DNA from: Burkholderiales bacterium PBB2
GTDB taxonomy: Bacteria; Pseudomonadota; Gammaproteobacteria; Burkholderiales; Burkholderiaceae_C
Reading direction: 5' to 3'
NCBI GenBank assembly: GCA_002255955.1
Contig: NKIM01000005.1
Coordinates: 62,001 to 126,000 of the forward strand
Length of the DNA stretch: 64,000 bases
Shown here piece after piece: positions 10,447 to 23,077 of this stretch. The notes beneath the pieces are model-generated. The model was not told where the DNA came from, ran no database searches, and saw nothing but the letters and a program-made list of their open reading frames with translations. How positions within the stretch are numbered: the first letter of the stretch is position 1; each line of letters begins with the position of its first letter. The translations under genes and the position numbers were made by a program.

Positions 10447-10735
10447 GGTGGGCGGCAATCAATTCGCAGTACGGGAAAACCCACCATCATAGGTCGGGCG
10501 TCCCTCAAGCGCCCTGCTGCGGCCTGGGCGGGCCGCTCCAGGCCGGAAATCGCCCCAGAACGGCAGTTGTTCACGCCTAGGGTTAACCCCTTGTCGGCGC
10601 CGGCGGCGATTCAATCGCCTGCGGCCGCAGTTCGTCGCACAGGCATGGCTGAGCCCCCTGGGGTTTTCGATACTGAGTCCATCGAAGCAGCACTGGGCCG
10701 CTTCGCCAACCGCAAGAAAGAAAGCAGGACTCATC

Positions 10736-11008
10736 ATGAAGACCACCACCACCCTGATCCGCATCGCCAGCGCCGCCCTGGCCACCAGCCTGATGTTCGC
10801 CGCCACGGCCGCCTCCGCTGCCGACAGCAGCGCCACCAAGACCGAGCTGCCGCGCGTGGTCGTAACCGGTAAGTCCGCCGGCCCCGCCCCGGTCGTGCAG
10901 CAACTGCCGCGCGTCGTGGTCTCGGGCCTGAGCGTCAACACCCAGATGCAGCAGCTGATGCTGGCTGCCGCCAAGAGCGATGGCAAGGCTGCACGTCGCA
11001 ACGGCTGA
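10736..11008 (+). CDS. Small exported protein with repeated LPRVVV motif
   Basis: A 90-residue protein with a clear Sec signal peptide (MKTTTTLIRIASAALATS..., cleavage near ASAAD). The mature part holds two copies of a short motif, LPRVVVTGKS and LPRVVVSGLS, about 20 residues apart, then a Gln/Met-rich stretch and a basic tail. The RVVVTG motif resembles the segment at the start of the plug in TonB-dependent receptors, but no receptor follows. AGGA at 10726-10729 supports the start. It is divergent from uvrA. Function is unknown. Confidence 0.75.
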   Translation: MKTTTTLIRIASAALATSLMFAATAASAADSSATKTELPRVVVTGKSAGPAPVVQQLPRVVVSGLSVNTQMQQLMLAAAKSDGKAARRNG

Positions 11009-11219
11009 GACGGGACCACGTGATGCAGAAGCGATGCCCCGCCAGAGGCAGCTGCCCCACCAACCGCTCTGAACCCTGCCGAGCCGAGCCATAGACGCAT
11101 GGCCGGTGCTGCCGCCCCCCCTGAATGGACGTGAGCACCCCCGTGTTTCTCTGCCTCGGCTCGGCCTTTTGTGAGCCACATCTCCGACAATGCCGCCAAC
11201 ATTCGTTGGAGGTGCTGGA

Positions 11220-12443
11220 GTGACGGAAGAATCCCGCAAGCGCAGATCATGGCTTGACGGCTTCATGGCCTATGCCTTGCCCACCGGGCTGGCGGAGGCC
11301 CAGGTGCGCCACAACATCGTGGTGCTGGACCAGCTGCTCTACGCCTTGTGGAACCTGGGCGAGAACCTGGTGTTCGCCTGGACCCCGCTGCCGCAGGGCT
11401 TGAACCTGCTGGTCGCCCCCCATCCCTTGCTGACCGAGTTCACCCAGGCGCCTGGCCTGGCACCCGAGGAAGTGCGCCGACGCGCCCAGCTGCTCGATGA
11501 GCTGCTGGCCCACCAAAGCCATCTCAGCGCCGAGCAGTTCGAGCGCACCGCGGCCGAGCTGGGCCTGCGCCCTCACACCATCCAGCTGCCCTTCGCGCCC
11601 GACGCCGGCCTGGGCCTGGACCTGGTGGCCGCCATCATTGCGCGCTACGGCATCCGCCTGGTGGAAGACCGGGCGGTGATCCTGTTCGACGCGGTGGGCT
11701 TCTCCCTGCTCAGCCCGCTGCAGCAGGTGGTGCAGCTGAACAGCCTGTCCTGCTCGGTCAATGCCGCCTATGCCAAGCTGCTGGACCGCGAGATCAACAT
11801 CAACTTCGCCCGCACCACCACCGGCGATGGCTTCTACATCTGGAACCGCATGCGCGGCATCGAGGCCAATGTCGAGCTCTACCAGCTGCTGCAGTTCATC
11901 CTGGCCGACAACGCCCTGGCCCGTGAACGCGCCAGCCAGCCCAACTCGGTGCCCCTGCTGCGCGCGGCCTTCCATGTCGGCTCGCACTACGAGTTCTACC
12001 AATCCGAGGGCCTGAACCCGACCTCCTTCAGCTACTTGGTCGGCCAGGTCACGATCGAGCTGGCGCGCATGATCGAGCGCGCCCTGCCGGGCCAGATCCT
12101 GCTGGGCAAGTTCAACACCTTGATGCGCGACGAGCACAGCGGCGAGGTGCAACGGATGGCCAGCATCGATTTTGTCGAGCGCACCCGCCGCCCGCTCAAG
12201 GCCTTGAACGGCCTGAGCCTGGCCGGCGCGGAGATCGACGAGATCGCCTGCTACCTGACCGGCCGCCCGAACGGTCAGGGCGAGTTCGGCATCAGCGAGT
12301 TCGAGATCCTCGACAAGCACGGCCGCGCCCACCGCGTCTACAACGCCAAGATCAACATCCACCGGCGTGCCGGGGAACCGATCTACCTGGGTCTGCGCGA
12401 AGAAGACCTGCCCGCTTTCCCTGCACCTGTTACGGTTTGTTAA
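11220..12443 (+). CDS. Divergent class III nucleotidyl-cyclase-like protein
   Basis: A 407-residue protein. Residues about 145-320 look like a divergent class III adenylate/guanylate cyclase fold: AVILFDAVGFSLL near residue 155 carries the first metal-binding Asp, TTTGDGFYIWN near 201 carries the second, and a segment near 280 (YLVGQVTIELARMIERALPGQILLG) matches the end of the domain. In that segment the transition-state Asn seems replaced by Ile while the Arg is kept, so activity is uncertain. The N-terminal 140 residues are not recognised. GGAGG at 11208-11212 selects the GTG at 11220; an ATG at 11190 would add ten residues. It is probably co-transcribed with the next gene, also a cyclase. 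Confidence 0.7.
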   Translation: MTEESRKRRSWLDGFMAYALPTGLAEAQVRHNIVVLDQLLYALWNLGENLVFAWTPLPQGLNLLVAPHPLLTEFTQAPGLAPEEVRRRAQLLDELLAHQSHLSAEQFERTAAELGLRPHTIQLPFAPDAGLGLDLVAAIIARYGIRLVEDRAVILFDAVGFSLLSPLQQVVQLNSLSCSVNAAYAKLLDREININFARTTTGDGFYIWNRMRGIEANVELYQLLQFILADNALARERASQPNSVPLLRAAFHVGSHYEFYQSEGLNPTSFSYLVGQVTIELARMIERALPGQILLGKFNTLMRDEHSGEVQRMASIDFVERTRRPLKALNGLSLAGAEIDEIACYLTGRPNGQGEFGISEFEILDKHGRAHRVYNAKINIHRRAGEPIYLGLREEDLPAFPAPVTVC

Positions 12444-12505
12444 CTGCGAACCATCCCCAAGCGGTAGGATGGCCGGACAACGCGAAGTCGCAAAACGCCC
12501 AGGCC

Positions 12506-15500
12506 ATGCCCGACCCTCACGATCGCGCCCCAGTGCCACAAGCCGTCGGGCAGCGACGCCATCTCACCATCCTGTTTTCAGACCTGTCGGAATCCACCCG
12601 GCTGTCCGATGCCATGGAGGCAGAGCATTACGCCGCCATGCTGGCCGAGGTGCGCGGCCTCTACCAAAACCTGATCGCCAAGCACGGCGGCACGGTGGTG
12701 CGCATCCAGGGCGACGGCGTGCTGGCCATCTTTGGCCACCCGCAAGCCGGCGAGGACGACGGCCGCCGCGCCACCGAGGCGGCGCTGGAGCTGCACCACG
12801 CCGTGCGGCGCATGAAGCCGCAAACCGCTGCGGCCGCCTGGCCGGCCGGCCAGGGCCTGAGCCTGCACACCGGCATCCATGCCGGCATGGTGCTGATCGA
12901 AGAGGGCGACGCCATGCGCGGCCGCTTCGAGCTGCTTGGCAACACACCCAATGTCGCCGCCCGCCTGGCCGATGAGGCCTGCGCCGATGAAATCCTCGTC
13001 AGCGCCGAAACCCTGGGCCCGCTGCACCCCTTTTTCCAGACCAGCGAACGTCGCCTGGTGCCGCTGAAAGGTCGTGCCACGCCGCTGGCGGTCTACAGCA
13101 TCCTGGGCCAGGTCAGCATCGGCCGGCGCTTTGAGGCCAGCAAGCGCCGCGGCCTGGCGCCTTTTGTCGGCCGCGCCGCCGAGCTGGCCCTGATGGAGCT
13201 GCGCCTCGATCAGGCCTGCAGCGGCCAACCGCAGTGGTTGAGCCTGCGCGCCAGCGCCGGCGTGGGCAAAACCCGGCTGACTGAAGAATTCCTGCGCCGC
13301 GCCGCCGACCGCGACTGCCGCGTGCTGCGCGGCTACTGCGAAAGCTACCTCAGCGCCGAACCCTTGCAGCCCTATCTGCAAATGCTGCGCACCCTGCAGC
13401 GCCAGGGCTCGGCCGAGGCCGACGCGGTGCTGCGCGGCCCGGCCAAGGAGCGGCAGGAGGCGGTGTTGCAGCTGCTGCTGCAACTGGCCGGCCAGGGGCC
13501 GCTGCTGCTGCTGATCGACGATCTGCAATGGGCGGATGACGCCAGCCTGGCCCTGCTGCACCGCCTGCGCGCCGAGGCCGAGCGTCGCGCGTTGCCGCTG
13601 ATGCTGCTGAGCGCCACCCGGCCTGCGGTGGTGACCGAAACCCCGGCCCTGCTGCTGCCCATTCACCATGGCCACGAAGCCGCCGAGGCCCTGCACCACC
13701 ACGAGCTGCTGCCCCTCACGGAAGAGGAGGCAAGCCAGGCCATCGCTCAGTTGCTGCCCGGCACCGACCCCTTCATCAGCGCCGAGGTCCAGCGCCATGC
13801 CGGCGGCAACCCGCTGTTCATTGAAGAGCTGTGCCACGCCCTGGCCCACCAGCGCGGCAGCGTCAGCCTGCGCGCCGCCGAGGAGGCGCCGCCCGCCCTG
13901 AACCCGGCCAGCGGCGGCCATGCCTGGCTGGCCGCGCTGATCGAATCACGGGTGGCGCGCCTGCCGCCCGCCCAGGCCCAGCTGCTGCGCGTGGCGGCGG
14001 TGATCGGCGCGGTCATCCCGACCTGGCTGTTCGAGCGCATCAGCGGCTGCTGCGAAAAAGACCCGGTGGTGCTGGAGCTGGCCGAGCTGGATTTCATCTT
14101 CCCGGCCGAGCAACCGGGCCTGCTGCGCTTCAAGCACGGCATCACCCGCGACGTCATCTACGACAGCACCGGCCTGCACGAGCGCCAGGCCCTGCACCGC
14201 CACATCACCGCCGAGCTGCGCGCCCAACTGGTCCTGGGCGGCCAGGAGCCCGCCCACGAGCTGCTGGCCTACCACGGTGGCGCCGCCGGCCAGTGGCAAG
14301 ATGCCGCCCACCATGCCGAGCAAGCGGGCGACCAAGCTCTGGCCAGCTCGGCCCTGGACCGAGCCAAAAAGCAATACCGCGCCGCCCTGGCCGCCCTGGA
14401 GCATCTGCCACCCAGCGAAGAGGTGCACCAGCGCTGGATCGCCATCGCCCACCGCTTCGGCATGGCCTGCGTGTTCGACGCCTCGCGCGCCGATTTGCGC
14501 GTGCTGCAGCACGCCACCGGCCTGGCCGCCCTCAGCGGCGACCCCACCGCCATGGCGCGCAGCCAGTACTGGCTGGGCTATGTGCGCTATGCCCTGGGCG
14601 AGGCACGCGCCGGCCTGCAGATCTGCTTGCGCAGCCTGGATCAGGCCCAACGTCTGCAAGACCAGACCCTGCTGGCGCAGATGACCGGCACCCTGGGCCA
14701 GATCCGCGCCGCCACGGCCGAGTACGCACCCGCCCTCCAGTTGCTCGATCAAGCCATCGCCCAGCTGCGCCCGCGCCCGTCCAGCGGCAACGGCCGGCCG
14801 GCCACGCGCCGCCCGCCCATCGGCCTCGCCTACTCGCTGGCCTGCCGAGCCTATGTGCTGGGCGACCAGGGCCATTTCAGCGCTGCAGAAGCCGCGTTCG
14901 ACGAGGCTTTGGGCCTGGTGCAAGGCAGCAACCATGCCGTCGAGGCGTCCATCCAGGGCTGGCGCGCCGCCGTGCTGCTCTGGCAGGGTCGCTGGGCTGA
15001 GGCGCAAGTCTGCGCGGCCGAAACCCACCGCGTCGGTGCCCAGGTGCGCAGCCTCTTCACCTTTGCCATGGGCCATGCCGCCGGAGCCTACGGCGCCTGG
15101 ATGGGCGGCCGCTGCCCGCTCGCGCGCCAGGCCCTGGAAGAAGCCGTGGCTTGGCTGAGCCCGCGCGGCGGTGGCCTGTTCAGCTCACTCAACCACGGCT
15201 GGCTGGCCGACATCCTGGTGCAGCAAGGCGAGGCAGATCGGGCCCGCAAGCACATGGCCCAGGCCCTGCGCCGCGGCCAGCAAAGCGACTGGATCGGCGT
15301 GGCCATGGCCTACCGCGCCGCCGCCCGCCTGGCGCAAAGCCAGGGCCAGCCCGAGCGGGTGACGCATTACCTGGCTGCTGCCCATGCCGTGGCACAGCGC
15401 CGCGGCTCCATGCACGAACGCGCCGTGACCGAACTCTGCGCTGCCGAGCTGGCCTTGCAGCGTGGCGAATCAGCGACCTCCCGCGGCCTGCTCGATGAAG

Positions 15501-15574
15501 CCGAATCAGCGTTCTTCACCATGGGCATGGATTGGCATTTGGCGAAGGCGCGGGAGCTGCGCAAGCAGCTCTAA
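12506..15574 (+). CDS. Adenylate/guanylate cyclase with AAA ATPase and TPR-like repeats
   Basis: A 1022-residue signalling protein. Residues about 15-195 are a class III cyclase domain with both metal-binding Asp residues (ILFSDLSESTRL and RIQGDGVLAIFG) and the catalytic Asn/Arg pair (LGNTPNVAARL), so it looks competent. Residues about 220-560 form an AAA-type ATPase related to LuxR/MalT-like regulators, with P-loop ASAGVGKTRLTEE near 250 and Walker B LLLLIDDLQWADD. The remainder is helical repeats of tetratricopeptide type. Family knowledge: such proteins are thought to couple an unknown signal to cyclic nucleotide synthesis. ATG 12506 is chosen over an in-frame TTG at 12437 that would overlap the upstream gene. 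Confidence 0.88.
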   Translation: MPDPHDRAPVPQAVGQRRHLTILFSDLSESTRLSDAMEAEHYAAMLAEVRGLYQNLIAKHGGTVVRIQGDGVLAIFGHPQAGEDDGRRATEAALELHHAVRRMKPQTAAAAWPAGQGLSLHTGIHAGMVLIEEGDAMRGRFELLGNTPNVAARLADEACADEILVSAETLGPLHPFFQTSERRLVPLKGRATPLAVYSILGQVSIGRRFEASKRRGLAPFVGRAAELALMELRLDQACSGQPQWLSLRASAGVGKTRLTEEFLRRAADRDCRVLRGYCESYLSAEPLQPYLQMLRTLQRQGSAEADAVLRGPAKERQEAVLQLLLQLAGQGPLLLLIDDLQWADDASLALLHRLRAEAERRALPLMLLSATRPAVVTETPALLLPIHHGHEAAEALHHHELLPLTEEEASQAIAQLLPGTDPFISAEVQRHAGGNPLFIEELCHALAHQRGSVSLRAAEEAPPALNPASGGHAWLAALIESRVARLPPAQAQLLRVAAVIGAVIPTWLFERISGCCEKDPVVLELAELDFIFPAEQPGLLRFKHGITRDVIYDSTGLHERQALHRHITAELRAQLVLGGQEPAHELLAYHGGAAGQWQDAAHHAEQAGDQALASSALDRAKKQYRAALAALEHLPPSEEVHQRWIAIAHRFGMACVFDASRADLRVLQHATGLAALSGDPTAMARSQYWLGYVRYALGEARAGLQICLRSLDQAQRLQDQTLLAQMTGTLGQIRAATAEYAPALQLLDQAIAQLRPRPSSGNGRPATRRPPIGLAYSLACRAYVLGDQGHFSAAEAAFDEALGLVQGSNHAVEASIQGWRAAVLLWQGRWAEAQVCAAETHRVGAQVRSLFTFAMGHAAGAYGAWMGGRCPLARQALEEAVAWLSPRGGGLFSSLNHGWLADILVQQGEADRARKHMAQALRRGQQSDWIGVAMAYRAAARLAQSQGQPERVTHYLAAAHAVAQRRGSMHERAVTELCAAELALQRGESATSRGLLDEAESAFFTMGMDWHLAKARELRKQL

Positions 15575-15618: not shown

Positions 15619-18600
15619 TCAACCCAGCTGCACCGCCAACACCGTCGGCGAGGGCGTCGCACGCAGCACGCCCGCTTCCAGCAGGCCGGCGGCCACACCC
15701 AGCATCACGCCCACGGCCATGGCGTAGCCAGGGCAGGCGTGCAGAGGCGCGGGGTCGACGGCGTCGTAGCGGTCGCCGCCAAACATGATGGTGTGATCGC
15801 CCGGGTTCTGGGCGGCGCAGGAGACGATGCCGACGATGATCTTGTCACCCTCTTGGACCTCGACACCGCGCAGACGGTGCGTCACGCGGGCGCGGCGCCA
15901 GACGGCGGCCGGTACCGGCTGGCGCATCATGGTGGCGAGCAGGGTGGGCCGCAGGGTGGCCACGGCGCGCGCGTACACCTGATCGGCGGCCATGGGCGCG
16001 CCGCCCAGCCAATCCTGCTGGAGGTCCCATAGCCTTTTGCTGACCACCCAGGCGGCCAGGCTGGAGACCTGGTTGCCATGCACGGTGGGCGGGAAGCCGA
16101 GCATGATGCCGGCCAGGGTGCGCGGGATGATGTCGGGGTCCAGCTTGGCGGCTTCGCTCAGCGAGTCCTTGATGGCCTGGCTGATGGCCGGCAGGGCAGG
16201 GTTGGTCTCCAGCCATTCACGCACGGCGCGTTGCAGGCCCTGGCCCTTGGCGCTGGCCACCTGCTCGACCACCGGGCCGGGCTGCGGGCCGAAGACGTAG
16301 CGCGACACGGCGAAGAAGTCACGCGGGCAGCGCGGCGCGCTGTTGGCCGCACCGGGCACATAGCCGGTGCCCAGCATCTGCTGATCGTTGGGCAGGCCGA
16401 ACCAGACGGTGCAGAGCTTGTCCAGCACGACTTCGGAGAGCTTCTCGATGTCCAGCAAGGCTTCGCGCTGGCCCAGCTTCTGGTTGCCTTCTTTCAGGGC
16501 CGCCAAGTAGGCGCGCGCCACACGGTAGCTGGCGGCAAAGGCCTCGGGCTCGCTGATGCTCTCAATCGCCGTGTTGATGGCTGGCGCCTGCTCGCGGTGG
16601 CCGCTGTCCTCGTCCATGCCGAGGTAGCCCAGGCCGATGGAGCGCTGCATGCGCTCACCGTAGCCGCGCACCGAGTAGCGCTGCTGGGTGTCGCGGAAGA
16701 CCTCGAGCACGGCCGCGGCCTCGCCGACCAACACGCCGTAGGCGGTGCGCAGCACGCCACCGGGCTGGGCGCGCACGTACGCCCAGGCGACGTCGCGGCT
16801 GCTGGGGTCTTCCATCCATTGCTGCCAGGCGGAAGCGTTGTCCAGGGCTGGCGCGCGCTGCGGTGCCGGGGCTGCGGCCGGCAGGGGCTGCTCCACCAAG
16901 GCCGGCAGATGGCGCAAGGCGGGCAGGGAGGGCACGAAGAAGTAAGCGCCCCATTGCAGCTCGACAAAAGGCTGTTCGCCCAGGTCGAGGTGCACGCTGC
17001 GCGGGCCGGAGTCGGTCTGCTCCTCAAAGCGGTAGATGCGCGGCTTGCCCTGGGTGGCCACGGCCAGGAAGGGGTCGGCCTGCTCGGCCAGGCCGCCGCT
17101 TGCATTGCCGCCGGCGATCCAGCGCTGCAGGGTTTCGAACTGCTCGGCCAGATGGGCGTTGTAGGCCATGAAGATCAGACCGCGGTCCTGCTCCTTCTCA
17201 TCGTCCTCGCGGGCCGGCTGCGCCAGGCTGCCGGTATAGACCGGGCCGTAGGACATGCCCCGGCGCAGCACGCGCGGAACCGCACCCTCACGCGGATTGC
17301 CACGGCGGATGTGGGCATGGAAGGGGCAGGCGCTGCCCGCTGAATCCTGCTGGTAGGTGAAGGCATTGCTGGGGCCGCTGCCGGGCGCGGCCAGGGGCTC
17401 GCCATCCAGGCTGCGGCCCATCATCTTGGCCAGCACGCGCTGCGGGTCCAGGCCGTGGACCTGGGCCTGCTCCTGCACGCGGCGCTGCAGGCGGCCGACA
17501 TGCTGGCGCAGCTTGCGAACGACCAGGAAGCTGCCCAGGTCGAGCAGGGCATCGGCCTTCTCGGGCACGGCATGGCGGTCGCGCGACGTGGGGAAGCCCA
17601 GCACCACCTCGCCGCGCGGCACCGCGTCGGACCAGGGCTTGCCCGGGGCCGTGGGCGGGTTGGCCAGCGGGCCGCCGGCGCGCTGCGGGTCCACCTGGGG
17701 TTGGCTGATGCCGTCGATGAAGCCGAAGTTCTCGCGCGTGGCTCCGCTGCTCGGGTCGATATTGCGGCGCATGTCCTGCACGGCCAGCACCTGCAGGCCG
17801 CTGTCGCGCTCCAGGCTGGCGATTTCGGCATCCACCGTGGCTGCATTCACACCGGCACCGAAGCGCAGCTGCACCACTAGGTGCACGGCATTGAGGTCCA
17901 CACGTGCCGCCGGGCTGGCGCGCTCGGCCGCGCCGCGCGGCCAGTTGCGCTCGGGCAGCTTCCAGTAGCGCGGGTGGTTGTGGCGCAGATCGCCAAGCAC
18001 GCCGGCGCGCGCCTCCATGCCCTCCTGGAAGGCCTGAGGGAAGCGCGCCAGGCGCGAGGCCGGCACGCCCAGGGCGCGCAGGCCGGCCAAGCTCAGAGCG
18101 ACATTGCGATAGAAGCCATCGGTCGGGGCTTCACCGAGCAGGGTCTGGGCCTCGCTGCTGGGTTTGAACTGCTGGCTGAGCCAGGCCACCGCCTGACCGC
18201 GGTTGGCCACGCGCAGCAGCACCAGGGCGCCACCGACCAGATCGGGGTAGGCGCTGAGCATGCCGCCCTGGATGTCAGCATCACGGTAGGCCAGGGCGCG
18301 CGGCTTGACCTCGGGCTGGGGCGGCACGGTCTCGAACCAGGCCAGCATCTTGTAATGCGTGGCGCGCAAGGCATAGCCGGCGGCCAGCAGTGGGTTGGCC
18401 TGGGCCTGCTCGGGCGTGGGCGGCAGCAGGGGGAAGCGCTGCAGGGTATCCAGGCCGCGCAGCTCGAACAGCACATCGCGGGTGGCGCGCAGCAGGCAAT
18501 ACCCATCCGGCGCGCTGGGCAGGAAGTAGCGCTCCAGCGAATACAGCGCCGCCAGCGCCGGCAGGCCGCGCACGGCCATGTCGAAGGCTGCACGCAGGTC

Positions 18601-19212
18601 GCTGGGCAGGGGCTTGCTCTCGCCCGGCAGCGGCCGGCGCAGCCGGGTCACCGCCAGGTCGCCGCCCTCGGGATGCAGGCGGCTTTGGCGCTCCAGCTCG
18701 GCCAGGTAGTCGTGGTCGGCACAGCTGCGGCCCGATTCCAGGTAGAGGAAATCGGCCGAGAACTCATTGGCGCGCACCCACTCGATGTAGCGCTCGAAGG
18801 AGGTCTCGCGTGAAAGACGGTAGCCCTCGCAGTGGCAGAGCATCAGATCCAGCATGCTGCCCAGGTCATCCCAGATGACGCGCATATACGGCTCCCAGCC
18901 GCCGTCAAAACAGACATTGAGCAGGAACTTGTGCGGCGTGCCCTCGGCATCGATGCCCGGGCGCGGCTCGACGATGGCCCAGCGGAAGGAATGGACGATG
19001 CGGAAACGGCTGACCACATCGGTGAACAGTTCGGGCGTCTCGCTCGATTCGCGCGCCGACTGTCGCAAGGCGTTCAGCGTCTTGAGCACGCGGCGCAAGC
19101 GCTCGAGGTGGGTGATGGTCTCGAAGGCGTTGACGAAACCGGGCTTGATCGGCGTGAGCAGGCACAGATCGGTGATGCCCTGCAACTGGGTGTCTTGGCG
19201 GCTGGCTGGCAT
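15619..19212 (-). CDS. Fusion: N-terminal domain, DyP-type peroxidase, cytochrome P450-like domain
   Basis: A 1197-residue protein that appears to hold two haem modules. Residues 1 to about 300 are not firmly recognised; blocks such as FLLNVCFDGGWEPY hint at a ferredoxin-like DyP-related fold. Residues about 310-770 are a DyP-type peroxidase: ADIQGGMLSAY, LARFPQAFQEGM, the GxxDG motif in GFIDGISQP (497-505), the likely proximal haem His in CPFHAHIRRGNPR (about 634) and GLIFMAYNAHLAEQFE. Residues about 790-1197 resemble a cytochrome P450, with haem-thiolate Cys in PLHACPGYAM (about 1160) and an I-helix-like AGIMLGFPPTVHG. The K-helix Glu of ExxR seems replaced (VATLRPT). ATG 19212 has a purine-rich GAGGGAG upstream; the longest frame begins 75 bases earlier. 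Confidence 0.88.
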   Translation of the reverse strand: MPASRQDTQLQGITDLCLLTPIKPGFVNAFETITHLERLRRVLKTLNALRQSARESSETPELFTDVVSRFRIVHSFRWAIVEPRPGIDAEGTPHKFLLNVCFDGGWEPYMRVIWDDLGSMLDLMLCHCEGYRLSRETSFERYIEWVRANEFSADFLYLESGRSCADHDYLAELERQSRLHPEGGDLAVTRLRRPLPGESKPLPSDLRAAFDMAVRGLPALAALYSLERYFLPSAPDGYCLLRATRDVLFELRGLDTLQRFPLLPPTPEQAQANPLLAAGYALRATHYKMLAWFETVPPQPEVKPRALAYRDADIQGGMLSAYPDLVGGALVLLRVANRGQAVAWLSQQFKPSSEAQTLLGEAPTDGFYRNVALSLAGLRALGVPASRLARFPQAFQEGMEARAGVLGDLRHNHPRYWKLPERNWPRGAAERASPAARVDLNAVHLVVQLRFGAGVNAATVDAEIASLERDSGLQVLAVQDMRRNIDPSSGATRENFGFIDGISQPQVDPQRAGGPLANPPTAPGKPWSDAVPRGEVVLGFPTSRDRHAVPEKADALLDLGSFLVVRKLRQHVGRLQRRVQEQAQVHGLDPQRVLAKMMGRSLDGEPLAAPGSGPSNAFTYQQDSAGSACPFHAHIRRGNPREGAVPRVLRRGMSYGPVYTGSLAQPAREDDEKEQDRGLIFMAYNAHLAEQFETLQRWIAGGNASGGLAEQADPFLAVATQGKPRIYRFEEQTDSGPRSVHLDLGEQPFVELQWGAYFFVPSLPALRHLPALVEQPLPAAAPAPQRAPALDNASAWQQWMEDPSSRDVAWAYVRAQPGGVLRTAYGVLVGEAAAVLEVFRDTQQRYSVRGYGERMQRSIGLGYLGMDEDSGHREQAPAINTAIESISEPEAFAASYRVARAYLAALKEGNQKLGQREALLDIEKLSEVVLDKLCTVWFGLPNDQQMLGTGYVPGAANSAPRCPRDFFAVSRYVFGPQPGPVVEQVASAKGQGLQRAVREWLETNPALPAISQAIKDSLSEAAKLDPDIIPRTLAGIMLGFPPTVHGNQVSSLAAWVVSKRLWDLQQDWLGGAPMAADQVYARAVATLRPTLLATMMRQPVPAAVWRRARVTHRLRGVEVQEGDKIIVGIVSCAAQNPGDHTIMFGGDRYDAVDPAPLHACPGYAMAVGVMLGVAAGLLEAGVLRATPSPTVLAVQLG

Positions 19213-19516
19213 ATTGGAAAGCTCCCTCGGTGAATATGTAGCGAGGCACAGCGTCCCCGCGGCACACGACGGCGTGATGACAGCCACGGCCGAGGTGCGC
19301 CGCCGACCATAGTGGCTGGCCGCCGTTCTGTCCTCGGGATTTCTAGGGATTCGCGCCCGGCTGGGGTGGGTTCAAGCCCGCTTTTCGTCGCCCTGGATGG
19401 CGATTCGCGCGCTCCGGCCTGCAGCTCATCGCCCGAGCCTGGAAAGGCCCGGCGAGATTGCCGACACTTCAACCATCGCAACAGAGGAGCCCACCCTCAC
19501 CAAGGAGATTCGCATC
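19213..19516. other. Divergent control region
   Basis: About 304 bases between the DyP-P450 gene (leftward) and a small exported protein gene (rightward). It holds both ribosome binding sites. No dyad or promoter stands out, and no gene is visible. Confidence 0.3.
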
Positions 19517-21049: not shown

Positions 21050-23077
21050 ATGCCCCAACGCCCGATTCACACGGATTCGCACCGCCGCGCTTTCTTCGCC
21101 GCCACGGGCGGCATGGCCCTGGCGCTGGCCGCCCTGCTGGCGGGCTGCGGCGGCGGTGGGGGCGGCGGTGACAGCCCGCCTACGCCCGTGCAGCCAGTGC
21201 CGCCGGTGGCCGAGGTGCCGCCGCTGAGCAGCCAGTGCCAGAGCAACTCGATCGCCCGCCTGGCCCAGCCGGCCACGCTGCAGGCCGGGCGCAACCAGGA
21301 GCTGAGCCTCTTGGCCTGCCCCGGCCACCGCCTGAGCCAGCTGCGCTGGGAACAAAAGGAGGGCGCGGCCCTGACTACCCTGTCGGCGCGCTCGCAGGCG
21401 CTGACGCTGGAGCCCGGCGCCGCCGGCAGCCACCGTTTCGATCTCAGCTACCAGGATGAGCTGGGCCGCAACTACAGCGCCAGCCTGCCCCTGACCGTGG
21501 CGGCCGACGCCAACCCGGCGGCCTTGCGCGCGGTGCTGCGCGGCGAGCCCAGTGTTTACGCCGGCGGCAAGTTCTCGCTGCGCGCCTGGCTGCCCGGCTT
21601 GAGTGACACGGAGCTGGCCACGGCCAGCTGGCGCTGGGAGCAGCTGGAAGGGCCGACACTGAGCCTGAGCGGCGCCAGCGGCGCGCGCCTGCTGGCCACG
21701 GCGCCAGCCGCCAGCAGCGACACGCTGCTGCGTCTGCGCGCCAGCGCCGATCTCGGTGACGGCCGCAGCGCCAGCGGCGATTTCAGCCTGCTGGTGCAGG
21801 CCCTGCCACCGCTGCCAGCCAACCCCCTGTTCGGCAGCGACGAGACCCCCAGCCGCGTCTACCCCTACAAAGCCAGCAGCCCCTGGGCCGGGGCGCTGAG
21901 CGAGTGTGTCTACCACCCGGGCCTGAGCTCCAGCAACCCCAACAACCTCTGCACCCTGGGTAAGCTGCCCTTGCTGGGCAGCGCCAACAGCACGGGCACG
22001 CCGACGGTGGACGAGATCATGGACCGCGTGCTGGTCTCCAACGACTGGATGGGCGCCAACTTCGAGCGCTTTCTGCGCGAACAGGATGTGCATGGCGATT
22101 TCCGCCGCATGCTGGCCTCGGTGACGGCCGTGGTGATCGGGGGGCGGGTCCGCCCGGCGTTCTACTGGAGCGCCACCGGGGCCATCTACCTGGACGCCGC
22201 CAACCTCTGGCTGACGCCCGAGCAGCGCGACACCGTCAGCGAAACGCCCGACCCGCGCAGCGACAACGGCGCCGCGCTCAGCTTTGCCAGCCCCTGGCGC
22301 TACGTGAAGGACAACCGCCACGCCATCACCAGCCTGGCCGTGGCCAAGCGCGCCTCCCGCAGCCTGGAGGATGTGCAGAACGCGCTCGGCTCCCTGCTCT
22401 ACCACGAGCTCAGCCATGCCGGCGACTTCCTCCCGCCGCGCGTGCACGCCAGCCTGCTGGGCAGCAGCAAGCGGGTCTATGAAGCCATCCCGGCGCTGAC
22501 TGCCTCGGAACAGCTGAACCAGCGCTACCCCTTCTTCTCGCTGGAGATGCGCGGCCTGGCTCGCGTGCTGTCCTACGGCGACGCACCCACCGCCACCCAA
22601 CTCACCTACCGGCCCGAGGACGTGGTGCGCTTCTTCAGCCAGGACCGCGTCAACGACGACTACAGCTACTCCGTCGCCAGCGGCGCCGCCTTCTCGCGCG
22701 AAGACACGGCCATGCTGATCGAGGAAGCGCTGATGCAGCGACGCCTGGGCGTCTGGCGCGATTACGCCATCACCAACAAGCTCGAAGCCGGCGCCAACAG
22801 CGCCGACCTGACCGTCGTCTGGGGACAGCGCGGGCGCATCGGCGAGGCGGCCATCCGGCCGCGGCTCCAGCTGGTGCTGGCCGAGATCATGCCCTGGCTG
22901 CCGGCCGACTTTGCCGACGGCCTGGGCACGCCGCTGGCCCTGCGCCCCGGCAGCAGCTGGGGTGCCAACCTCGACCAGGCCGCCCTGCAGGCCGGCAAGA
23001 TCAAGCCGCTGAGCGCCCAGCAGCGCTACAACGAGCAGGAGCAGACCACACGCGCCCTGCTGCGTGGCAGCCGCTGA
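21050..23077 (+). CDS. Lipoprotein with HExxH metallopeptidase-like motif
   Basis: A 675-residue exported protein. The N-terminus has RR followed by a hydrophobic stretch and a lipobox ending in LLAGC (Cys near 33), then a Gly-rich and Pro-rich linker, so lipidation is likely. Residues about 60-260 look like two Ig/PKD-like beta domains (RWEQKEGAALTTLS and RWEQLEGPTLSLSG share a pattern). The C-terminal half is not recognised, but it holds HELSH (His452-Glu453-x-x-His456), the zinc-binding HExxH signature, in LLYHELSHAGDFLPP. A secreted zinc peptidase is plausible; the third zinc ligand was not identified. It is divergent from the MFS gene. Confidence 0.75.
   Translation: MPQRPIHTDSHRRAFFAATGGMALALAALLAGCGGGGGGGDSPPTPVQPVPPVAEVPPLSSQCQSNSIARLAQPATLQAGRNQELSLLACPGHRLSQLRWEQKEGAALTTLSARSQALTLEPGAAGSHRFDLSYQDELGRNYSASLPLTVAADANPAALRAVLRGEPSVYAGGKFSLRAWLPGLSDTELATASWRWEQLEGPTLSLSGASGARLLATAPAASSDTLLRLRASADLGDGRSASGDFSLLVQALPPLPANPLFGSDETPSRVYPYKASSPWAGALSECVYHPGLSSSNPNNLCTLGKLPLLGSANSTGTPTVDEIMDRVLVSNDWMGANFERFLREQDVHGDFRRMLASVTAVVIGGRVRPAFYWSATGAIYLDAANLWLTPEQRDTVSETPDPRSDNGAALSFASPWRYVKDNRHAITSLAVAKRASRSLEDVQNALGSLLYHELSHAGDFLPPRVHASLLGSSKRVYEAIPALTASEQLNQRYPFFSLEMRGLARVLSYGDAPTATQLTYRPEDVVRFFSQDRVNDDYSYSVASGAAFSREDTAMLIEEALMQRRLGVWRDYAITNKLEAGANSADLTVVWGQRGRIGEAAIRPRLQLVLAEIMPWLPADFADGLGTPLALRPGSSWGANLDQAALQAGKIKPLSAQQRYNEQEQTTRALLRGSR

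Follow-up and report, generated by a model that had tools for sequence, protein, structure and literature searches.

Does one bacterial gene join a DyP-type peroxidase to a cytochrome P450, and what chemistry would such a pair perform? The question is raised by a 64,000-nucleotide stretch of DNA from Burkholderiales bacterium PBB2 (assembly GCA_002255955.1, contig NKIM01000005.1, positions 62,001 to 126,000 of the forward strand), here called the window. A sequence-only reading had proposed a DyP-P450 fusion at 15619-19212; the coordinates proved correct but the strand had to be changed to minus, and the plus strand of this interval was found to be interrupted by stop codons. The reading frame of the fusion gene was intact, with no frameshift, and comprised 1197 codons, or 1222 codons when counted from a GTG at 19287. 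Three parts were recognised in the chain of 1197 residues, an N-terminal domain (residues ~1-310), a DyP domain (~313-770) and a P450-fold domain (~775-1197):

15619..19212, minus strand: DyP-P450 fusion gene of 1197 codons and a stop, starting with the ATG at 19212; 67 other distinct relatives of full length
18283..19212, minus strand: N-terminal domain, residues 1-310, motif FDGGWEPYMR; its profile, A3, matches separate open reading frames (ORFs)
16903..18276, minus strand: DyP domain, residues 313-770; Pfam, TIGRFAM, PDB and Foldseek matches
15622..16890, minus strand: P450-fold domain, residues 775-1197; profile comparison, PDB search and predicted fold

The motifs that had been quoted for the two haem domains, GFIDGISQP, CPFHAHIRRGNPR and HACPGYAM, were present at residues 497-505, 629-641 and 1158-1165, respectively. 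Two genes joined by a frameshift were ruled out by the 67 further distinct full-length proteins, all of identical layout. Residue counts out of 68 given below refer to the aligned full-length fusion proteins, and the set of 68 loci includes close relatives. Profiles, predicted fold and the 67 further relatives bear out the fusion of a DyP and a P450 fold on a single chain, and this conserved architecture is almost certainly real.

The DyP part keeps its catalytic residues

The DyP part matched Pfam PF20628 above the cut-off (E 1.3e-8) and TIGR01413 slightly below that model's own cut-off (E 1.2e-26, 93.8 bits compared to 100.5). DyPs in the PDB matched residues 370-771, the best being 8re3 (E 4.9e-30), and the DyP model matched the structure 8re2 in Foldseek (E 2.4e-21). 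A Dyp_perox_C search of the bacterium's own genome found the fusion as the sole match. Three residues were placed by alignment to known DyPs, and we take their catalytic roles, partly by their motifs, to be the following:

17713..17715, minus strand: D500, presumed catalytic Asp of the GxxDG motif; D in 67 and E in 1 of 68
17311..17313, minus strand: H634, presumed proximal haem His; 68 of 68, aligned with DyPs of known structure
17263..17265, minus strand: R650, presumed distal Arg; 68 of 68, aligned with the R of ..RRG.. in DyPs

H634 is the likely proximal haem ligand that the first reading had picked out.

The C-terminal half is a divergent P450

The Pfam p450 model matched neither the whole fusion protein nor the C-terminal regions (0 of 53 members), so that a Pfam check proposed earlier succeeded for the peroxidase family and failed for the P450. 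Taken alone, this lack of a P450 profile match would count as a refutation, but it was overruled by profile comparison, PDB search and predicted fold. In hhalign, the family profile aligned with that of 28 ordinary P450s at 98.4% (E 5.4e-15, 328 columns) with Cys on Cys, compared to 0.1% for an N-terminal control profile against the same P450 profile. A PDB sequence search with the profile of 53 members gave 25 weak matches, of which 24 were P450s (best E 0.0037). The AlphaFold model of the P450 part had a pLDDT of 94.8 and a pTM of 0.93, and 50 of 50 among the Foldseek matches listed for it were P450s (best E 8.9e-9, TM 0.52-0.65). Plain Pfam was therefore rejected as the decisive P450 test, being too insensitive. 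When the C-terminal profile was run against other genomes, it detected ordinary P450s, most strongly L114 (E 6.5e-7) and L102 (E 1.9e-6), plus weaker ones. A PF00067 search of the own genome found only another, ordinary P450 on contig C82. As judged by profile comparison, predicted fold and Cys loop, the C-terminal half is a divergent cytochrome P450. Because Pfam is blind to it, annotation pipelines are likely to label such proteins plain DyPs; a copy on a Sphingopyxis plasmid is annotated as a DyP-domain protein.

Elements kept and lost in the P450 part

Alignment of the 68 proteins placed the following elements:

15727..15783, minus strand: Cys loop F1144-G1162, with the thiolate C1160 at 15733-15735; F, G, H, C and G invariant, 68 of 68
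15895..15897, minus strand: R1106, corresponding to the Arg that follows the K helix; 68 of 68, aligned with that Arg in the compared P450s
15925..15936, minus strand: ExxR-equivalent A1093-T-M-M1096, motif lost by alignment; E1093 with R1096 in 1 of 68
16072..16110, minus strand: I-helix segment G1035-N1047; P1042 replaces the acid, T1043 retained

Invariant in all proteins were F1144, G1145, H1158, C1160 and G1162, together with W1105 and R1106, the last of which we take to be the haem-propionate Arg. The haem-thiolate Cys loop that had been claimed is thus present, with C1160 in 68 of 68. A variable-length insertion separates FGG from HxC, as it does in three P450s encoded beside separate DyP genes (L164, L166 and L171).

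The claim that the Glu of ExxR is missing held for the whole family, the motif being gone at the equivalent columns in 67 of 68. Its site, in contrast, had been misplaced at VATLRPT; alignments put the equivalent, A1093-M1096, eight residues later. At 1085/1088 the motif was present in 0 of 68, and some E..R anywhere within 1080-1100 occurred in 8 of 68. The spacing from S1131 to F1144 was 13 residues compared to 26 in the ordinary P450 L103, and by this alignment part of the meander before the Cys loop, about half of the stretch, is missing. Since the meander is normally stabilised by ExxR, according to the available text of PMC3990721, and part of it is missing as well, the absent Glu would be one piece of a larger loss. 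P450s that lack ExxR have been documented before (CYP157), in a reference cited by the same text.

In the I helix, the acid column at position 1042 was occupied by P in 66 and A in 2 proteins, the acid being replaced in 68 of 68, and position 1043 was T in 61, S in 6 and P in 1. The I-helix acid of P450s serves to protonate bound O2. Neither ferredoxin (Fer2, PF00111) nor NAD_binding_1 (PF00175) genes were found on the whole 181-kb contig, in agreement with the earlier remark that no ferredoxin or reductase gene lies nearby; other reductase families were not searched. An ordinary O2-dependent monooxygenase, with ferredoxin and reductase encoded elsewhere and the DyP half removing leaked H2O2, would account for the retained T1043, and 11 Fer2 and 5 NAD_binding_1 matches do occur on other contigs of the genome. 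It is nonetheless improbable given an I-helix acid missing throughout the family and the empty result on the fusion's own contig. The acid loss, the lack of Fer2 and NAD_binding_1 genes on the contig and the DyP partner together favour peroxide or hydroperoxide chemistry. P450 peroxygenases without the acid-alcohol pair are described in the accessible part of PMC10988616, and fungal dioxygenase-P450 fusions, as far as the available text of PMC13049297 goes, have an HxC loop and use hydroperoxides from their own first domain. Peroxide-type chemistry of the P450 half is, by its sequence, somewhat favoured over other kinds.

A class III cyclase is linked to the fusion

The fusion gene has a conserved tail-to-tail neighbour, which the first reading had passed over along with the lipase partners described below:

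12437..15574, plus strand: class III cyclase-AAA_16-TPR protein, by Pfam; start TTG uncertain

Its Pfam matches were Guanylate_cyc (E 1.3e-20), AAA_16 (3e-22) and TPR_12 (3.8e-9), and 44 bases separate the end of the gene from the fusion's stop codon. A cyclase homologue was found at 54 of the 68 fusion loci by blastp (53 by clustering), within 500 bases in 43 and tail-to-tail in 52 of the 54; at two Bradyrhizobium loci it has the same direction as the fusion. Eight of the 14 loci without cyclase hit a contig end within 1.2 kb. The cyclase was also present in 6 of 6 more distant fusion homologues with enough flank, on the Sphingopyxis plasmid (39% identical to the window's cyclase) and at L118 (36%). 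Among 148 genomes, a close cyclase was found in 20 of 20 that carry the fusion compared to 4 of 128 others, where close means E <= 1e-120, a limit chosen after the list was seen (next value 5e-52). It lies about 17 kb from the fusion in two genomes (G007 and G012), and no second full-length copy was found in the own genome. A functional tie between fusion and cyclase is likely. A Crp/Fnr gene stood beside the locus in 11 of 77 records (near-duplicates L077 and L078 included) and at L118; it is an accessory of the locus, not a constant part.

A defence or stress-alarm system, in which a STAND-like cyclase-AAA-TPR protein works with an oxidative effector, would fit the AAA-TPR layout, and the cyclase domain matched nine PADLOC PycC models (best E 5e-19). 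Such matches are, however, expected from any class III cyclase, no PADLOC model matched the fusion, and the locus, which lies next to uvrA, is stable throughout the genus and not island-like, so that this explanation is very improbable. A known defence system was rejected, the fusion having no PADLOC match and the PycC matches being taken as class III cyclase similarity. No Pycsar effector was found in a PADLOC search limited to two window proteins and one N-domain ORF.

Upstream of the cyclase, the window holds at 11190-12443 (plus strand) a gene for 417 residues with no Pfam match and a cyclase-like stretch by eye; many of the relatives' loci, and four fusion-free genomes, have it at the corresponding position. 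Further off, at 21050-23077 (plus strand), lies a putative lipoprotein of 675 residues with a weak PKD-type match and relatives at 6 of 68 clustered loci. Some cyclase homologues at loci with separate DyP genes differ at the N-terminus: those at L164 (1013-5281) and L166 (11087-15232) have about 350-500 extra N-terminal residues, with a CHAT-like match slightly below the Pfam cut-off in L166, and those at L157 (12013-15390) and L162 (10672-14022) have an N-terminal SAM domain (Pfam SAM_1, above cut-off).

The same parts occur as separate genes

The roughly 300 N-terminal residues had been described as of unknown type. Pfam found no match in the N-domain of 39 members (best chance matches E 0.058), nor did its profile find any meaningful match in the PDB, in line with that description; in addition, relatives were found as separate ORFs beside DyPs. 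Profile A3 matched ORFs directly upstream of DyPs in L022 (E 7e-7) and L023 (E 6e-6) and a 170-aa ORF in L175 (E 9.7e-17), and 2 of 150 phylum genomes were matched. The N-domain model, partly of low confidence, starts beta-alpha-beta-beta-alpha and continues with helices; this predicted start would suit a ferredoxin-like half barrel.

The survey of separate genes covered 19 loci, namely every one of the 18 sites in the 148 relatives where a non-fused DyP was matched and one site chosen by its N-domain. The N-domain was detected by profile or blastp in 13 of the 19, a P450 beside the DyP in 7 (L156, L157, L158, L164, L166, L169 and L171) and a cyclase homologue in 7 (L157, L158, L162, L163, L164, L166 and L171), P450 and cyclase occurring together in 5. 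As background, any Pfam P450 was present in just 24 of 60 genomes of the order. Five of the seven operon P450s were above the Pfam cut-off, L166 was slightly below it and L171 had no match. In L164, L166 and L171 the P450 and the N-domain form a single ORF with the DyP gene next to it, by sequence another arrangement of the same parts. One further locus, L175, came up via its P450; there, genes for N-domain, DyP, P450 and an LCAT-type hydrolase follow one another in an order that in this one genome is colinear with the N-DyP-P450-GDSL layout of four long fusion homologues. By these sequence matches, what stands at the N-terminus of the fusion corresponds to a protein that has a gene of its own next to stand-alone DyPs. 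At L156, the ORFs behind the DyP-P450 pair (10588-12429) resemble a glutathione transferase and a YiiX/NlpC-type hydrolase by eye, and at L169 an ORF near the pair (12551-13549) is alpha/beta hydrolase-like by eye.

The operon P450s beside DyPs, L175 included, keep ExxR in 8 of 8, and the I-helix acid is replaced in 7 of 8. These counts bear on an explanation that takes the P450-fold domain for a regulator and not an enzyme, either structural or a haem-thiolate sensor, through which the DyP half or the cyclase would be informed of peroxide, NO/CO or the state of the haem. The joint loss of ExxR, meander part and I-helix acid in the fusion and the linkage to the cyclase speak for it, and a fungal dioxygenase partner, 10R-DOX-1, is described without a haem-thiolate ligand in the available text of PMC13049297. 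Against this, the thiolate Cys, the His, the propionate-type Arg and the I-helix T/S (67 of 68) are conserved beyond scaffold needs and the operon P450s have kept ExxR, which makes a sensor unlikely.

Spread of the fusion

The 68 fusion loci carry names that include Roseateles, Paucibacter, Pelomonas, Variovorax, Xenophilus, Pseudorhodoferax, Rivibacter, Rubrivivax, Ramlibacter and two Bradyrhizobium. The fusion was held by 20 of 148 relative genomes and 10 of 18 within the genus, own genome included, and outside the window's family it was scarce (2 of 398 sampled phylum genomes; 2 of 289 in the class of genome G256). In a quick tree, the fused DyPs (n = 18) made up one side of a branch with an SH-aLRT of 99, so that one fusion event would be the simplest reading. 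On plasmid pDB-1 of Sphingopyxis sp. DBS4 (L112, 5959-14306), a 5'-truncated copy adjoins a Tn3-family transposase; it is followed by the cyclase and a Crp/Fnr gene, and a mercury-transport cluster lies nearby.

Lipase partners

Four long homologues (L018, L019, L020 and L101, in contexts L105, L106, L107 and L111) end in an SGNH/GDSL-like domain; Pfam Lipase_GDSL_2 matched all four, one of them above cut-off. Patatin genes beside the DyP in L164 and L171 and the LCAT match in L175 were above the Pfam cut-off. That one enzyme pair is accompanied by lipases of three unrelated families is, on these sequence matches, suggestive of a lipid link. Peroxide detoxification, or lignin or aromatic oxidation, by the DyP half with the P450 part cleaning up products would leave the recurring lipases and the cyclase unexplained, and no secretion signal was noticed by eye. 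The intact DyP catalytic residues agree with such a role, as does the description of DyPs as broad peroxidases in the accessible part of PMC4420034, and it remains quite unlikely.

Proposed mechanism

The protein would be a soluble enzyme with two haems. Its DyP half would bind one haem via H634 and cleave peroxide with D500 and R650. The P450 half, with the FG, H, C1160, G and R1106 of its haem-binding apparatus kept, would not activate O2 with a reductase; we infer its reaction partner to be hydrogen peroxide or an organic hydroperoxide, probably that of a lipid. It would act as a peroxygenase or hydroperoxide isomerase, with the DyP half either supplying the (hydro)peroxide or keeping it in balance. 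DyPs are not known to dioxygenate fatty acids, so that this half of the fusion may act in another way, by reducing hydroperoxides or by generating radicals of the substrate. In some relatives, the lipase domain or gene would free the lipid, and the cyclase-AAA-TPR neighbour would respond to, or control, the chemistry of the fusion. The mechanism as a whole falls a little short of an even chance, and a lipid as substrate is about as tentative. Taken together, the relatives' lipases and the cyclase point to an undescribed lipid-oxidation or signalling system. An extension to a full lipid-signalling module is rather doubtful: a fatty acid or lysolipid freed by a lipase would be the starting material, from whose hydroperoxide, made or rearranged by the fusion, an oxylipin-like product would arise, and the cyclase (at some loci together with Crp/Fnr) would convert this into a cyclic-nucleotide signal.

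Several observations weigh against this peroxide- and lipid-based proposal. The C-terminal domain is not detected by Pfam p450, and the phylum profile search gave a false positive, L104 (E 3.1e-4, FtsX-like by eye), so that the weaker P450 matches (7e-5 to 7.5e-4) count little alone. Electron partners could be encoded elsewhere in the genome, and the L175 P450 retains Asp-Thr, so that acid loss is not universal among the operon versions. A lipase-like domain was found in only 4 of the fused proteins examined, above the Pfam cut-off in 1 of the 4, and the window's own fusion protein is without one; the lipases were picked by eye in selected loci and then tested by Pfam. The tail-to-tail fusion and cyclase genes are not co-transcribed, and four same-genus genomes keep the cyclase and the gene at 11190-12443 at the same locus without the fusion, showing that the cyclase does not need it.

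Comparison with known systems

No paper on a DyP-P450 fusion was found in the open PMC subset, whose coverage leaves out subscription journals and preprints. The DyP-type peroxidases 8re3 (D. radiodurans) and 4g2c (DyP2) have the whole DyP domain and its D/H/R residues in common with the fusion, in which, unlike in these proteins, the DyP is flanked by the N-domain and the P450 domain. The fusion would give DyPs, for which few natural substrates are known, a concrete substrate hypothesis. P450 peroxygenases (CYP152, OleT) resemble the fusion in having no acid-alcohol pair and in the peroxide use that is proposed for it from the missing acid; they differ in being stand-alone, and in the fusion the Thr is kept and the acid is Pro. 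To our knowledge, ExxR loss is not a feature of these peroxygenases, and we know of no meander loss in CYP157. CYP157 of Streptomyces, which is not fused, shares the absence of ExxR, according to the available text of PMC3990721. With its ExxR-free P450, the fusion family would offer a test of what the P450 fold needs. The class III cyclase domain of Pycsar PycC resembles that of the neighbour, which adds AAA and TPR parts.

The closest parallel is fungal. PpoA/linoleate diol, allene oxide and epoxy alcohol synthases likewise place a peroxidase-type haem domain ahead of a self-sufficient P450 on one chain, with an HxCxG loop and without a reductase, as far as the accessible parts of PMC13049297 and PMC4420034 describe them. 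The first reading saw a likeness to PpoA in logic only, and this is supported: no PpoA-type peroxidase-cyclooxygenase domain was found, the peroxidase part being a DyP by profile and fold matches, of the chlorite-dismutase superfamily and not the peroxidase-cyclooxygenase superfamily. The family described here also differs in being bacterial, in its extra N-domain, in the lost ExxR and in its cyclase neighbour. Fused and separate-gene versions both exist, which makes the hypothesis directly testable. The peroxidase-P450 fusions that have been described are fungal oxylipin synthases with a peroxidase-cyclooxygenase domain, and a DyP in the corresponding position in a bacterial family would mean that peroxidase and P450 had been paired on two occasions. 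If true, the signalling module would be a convergent bacterial counterpart of the fungal peroxidase-P450 routes, built on a different peroxidase superfamily.

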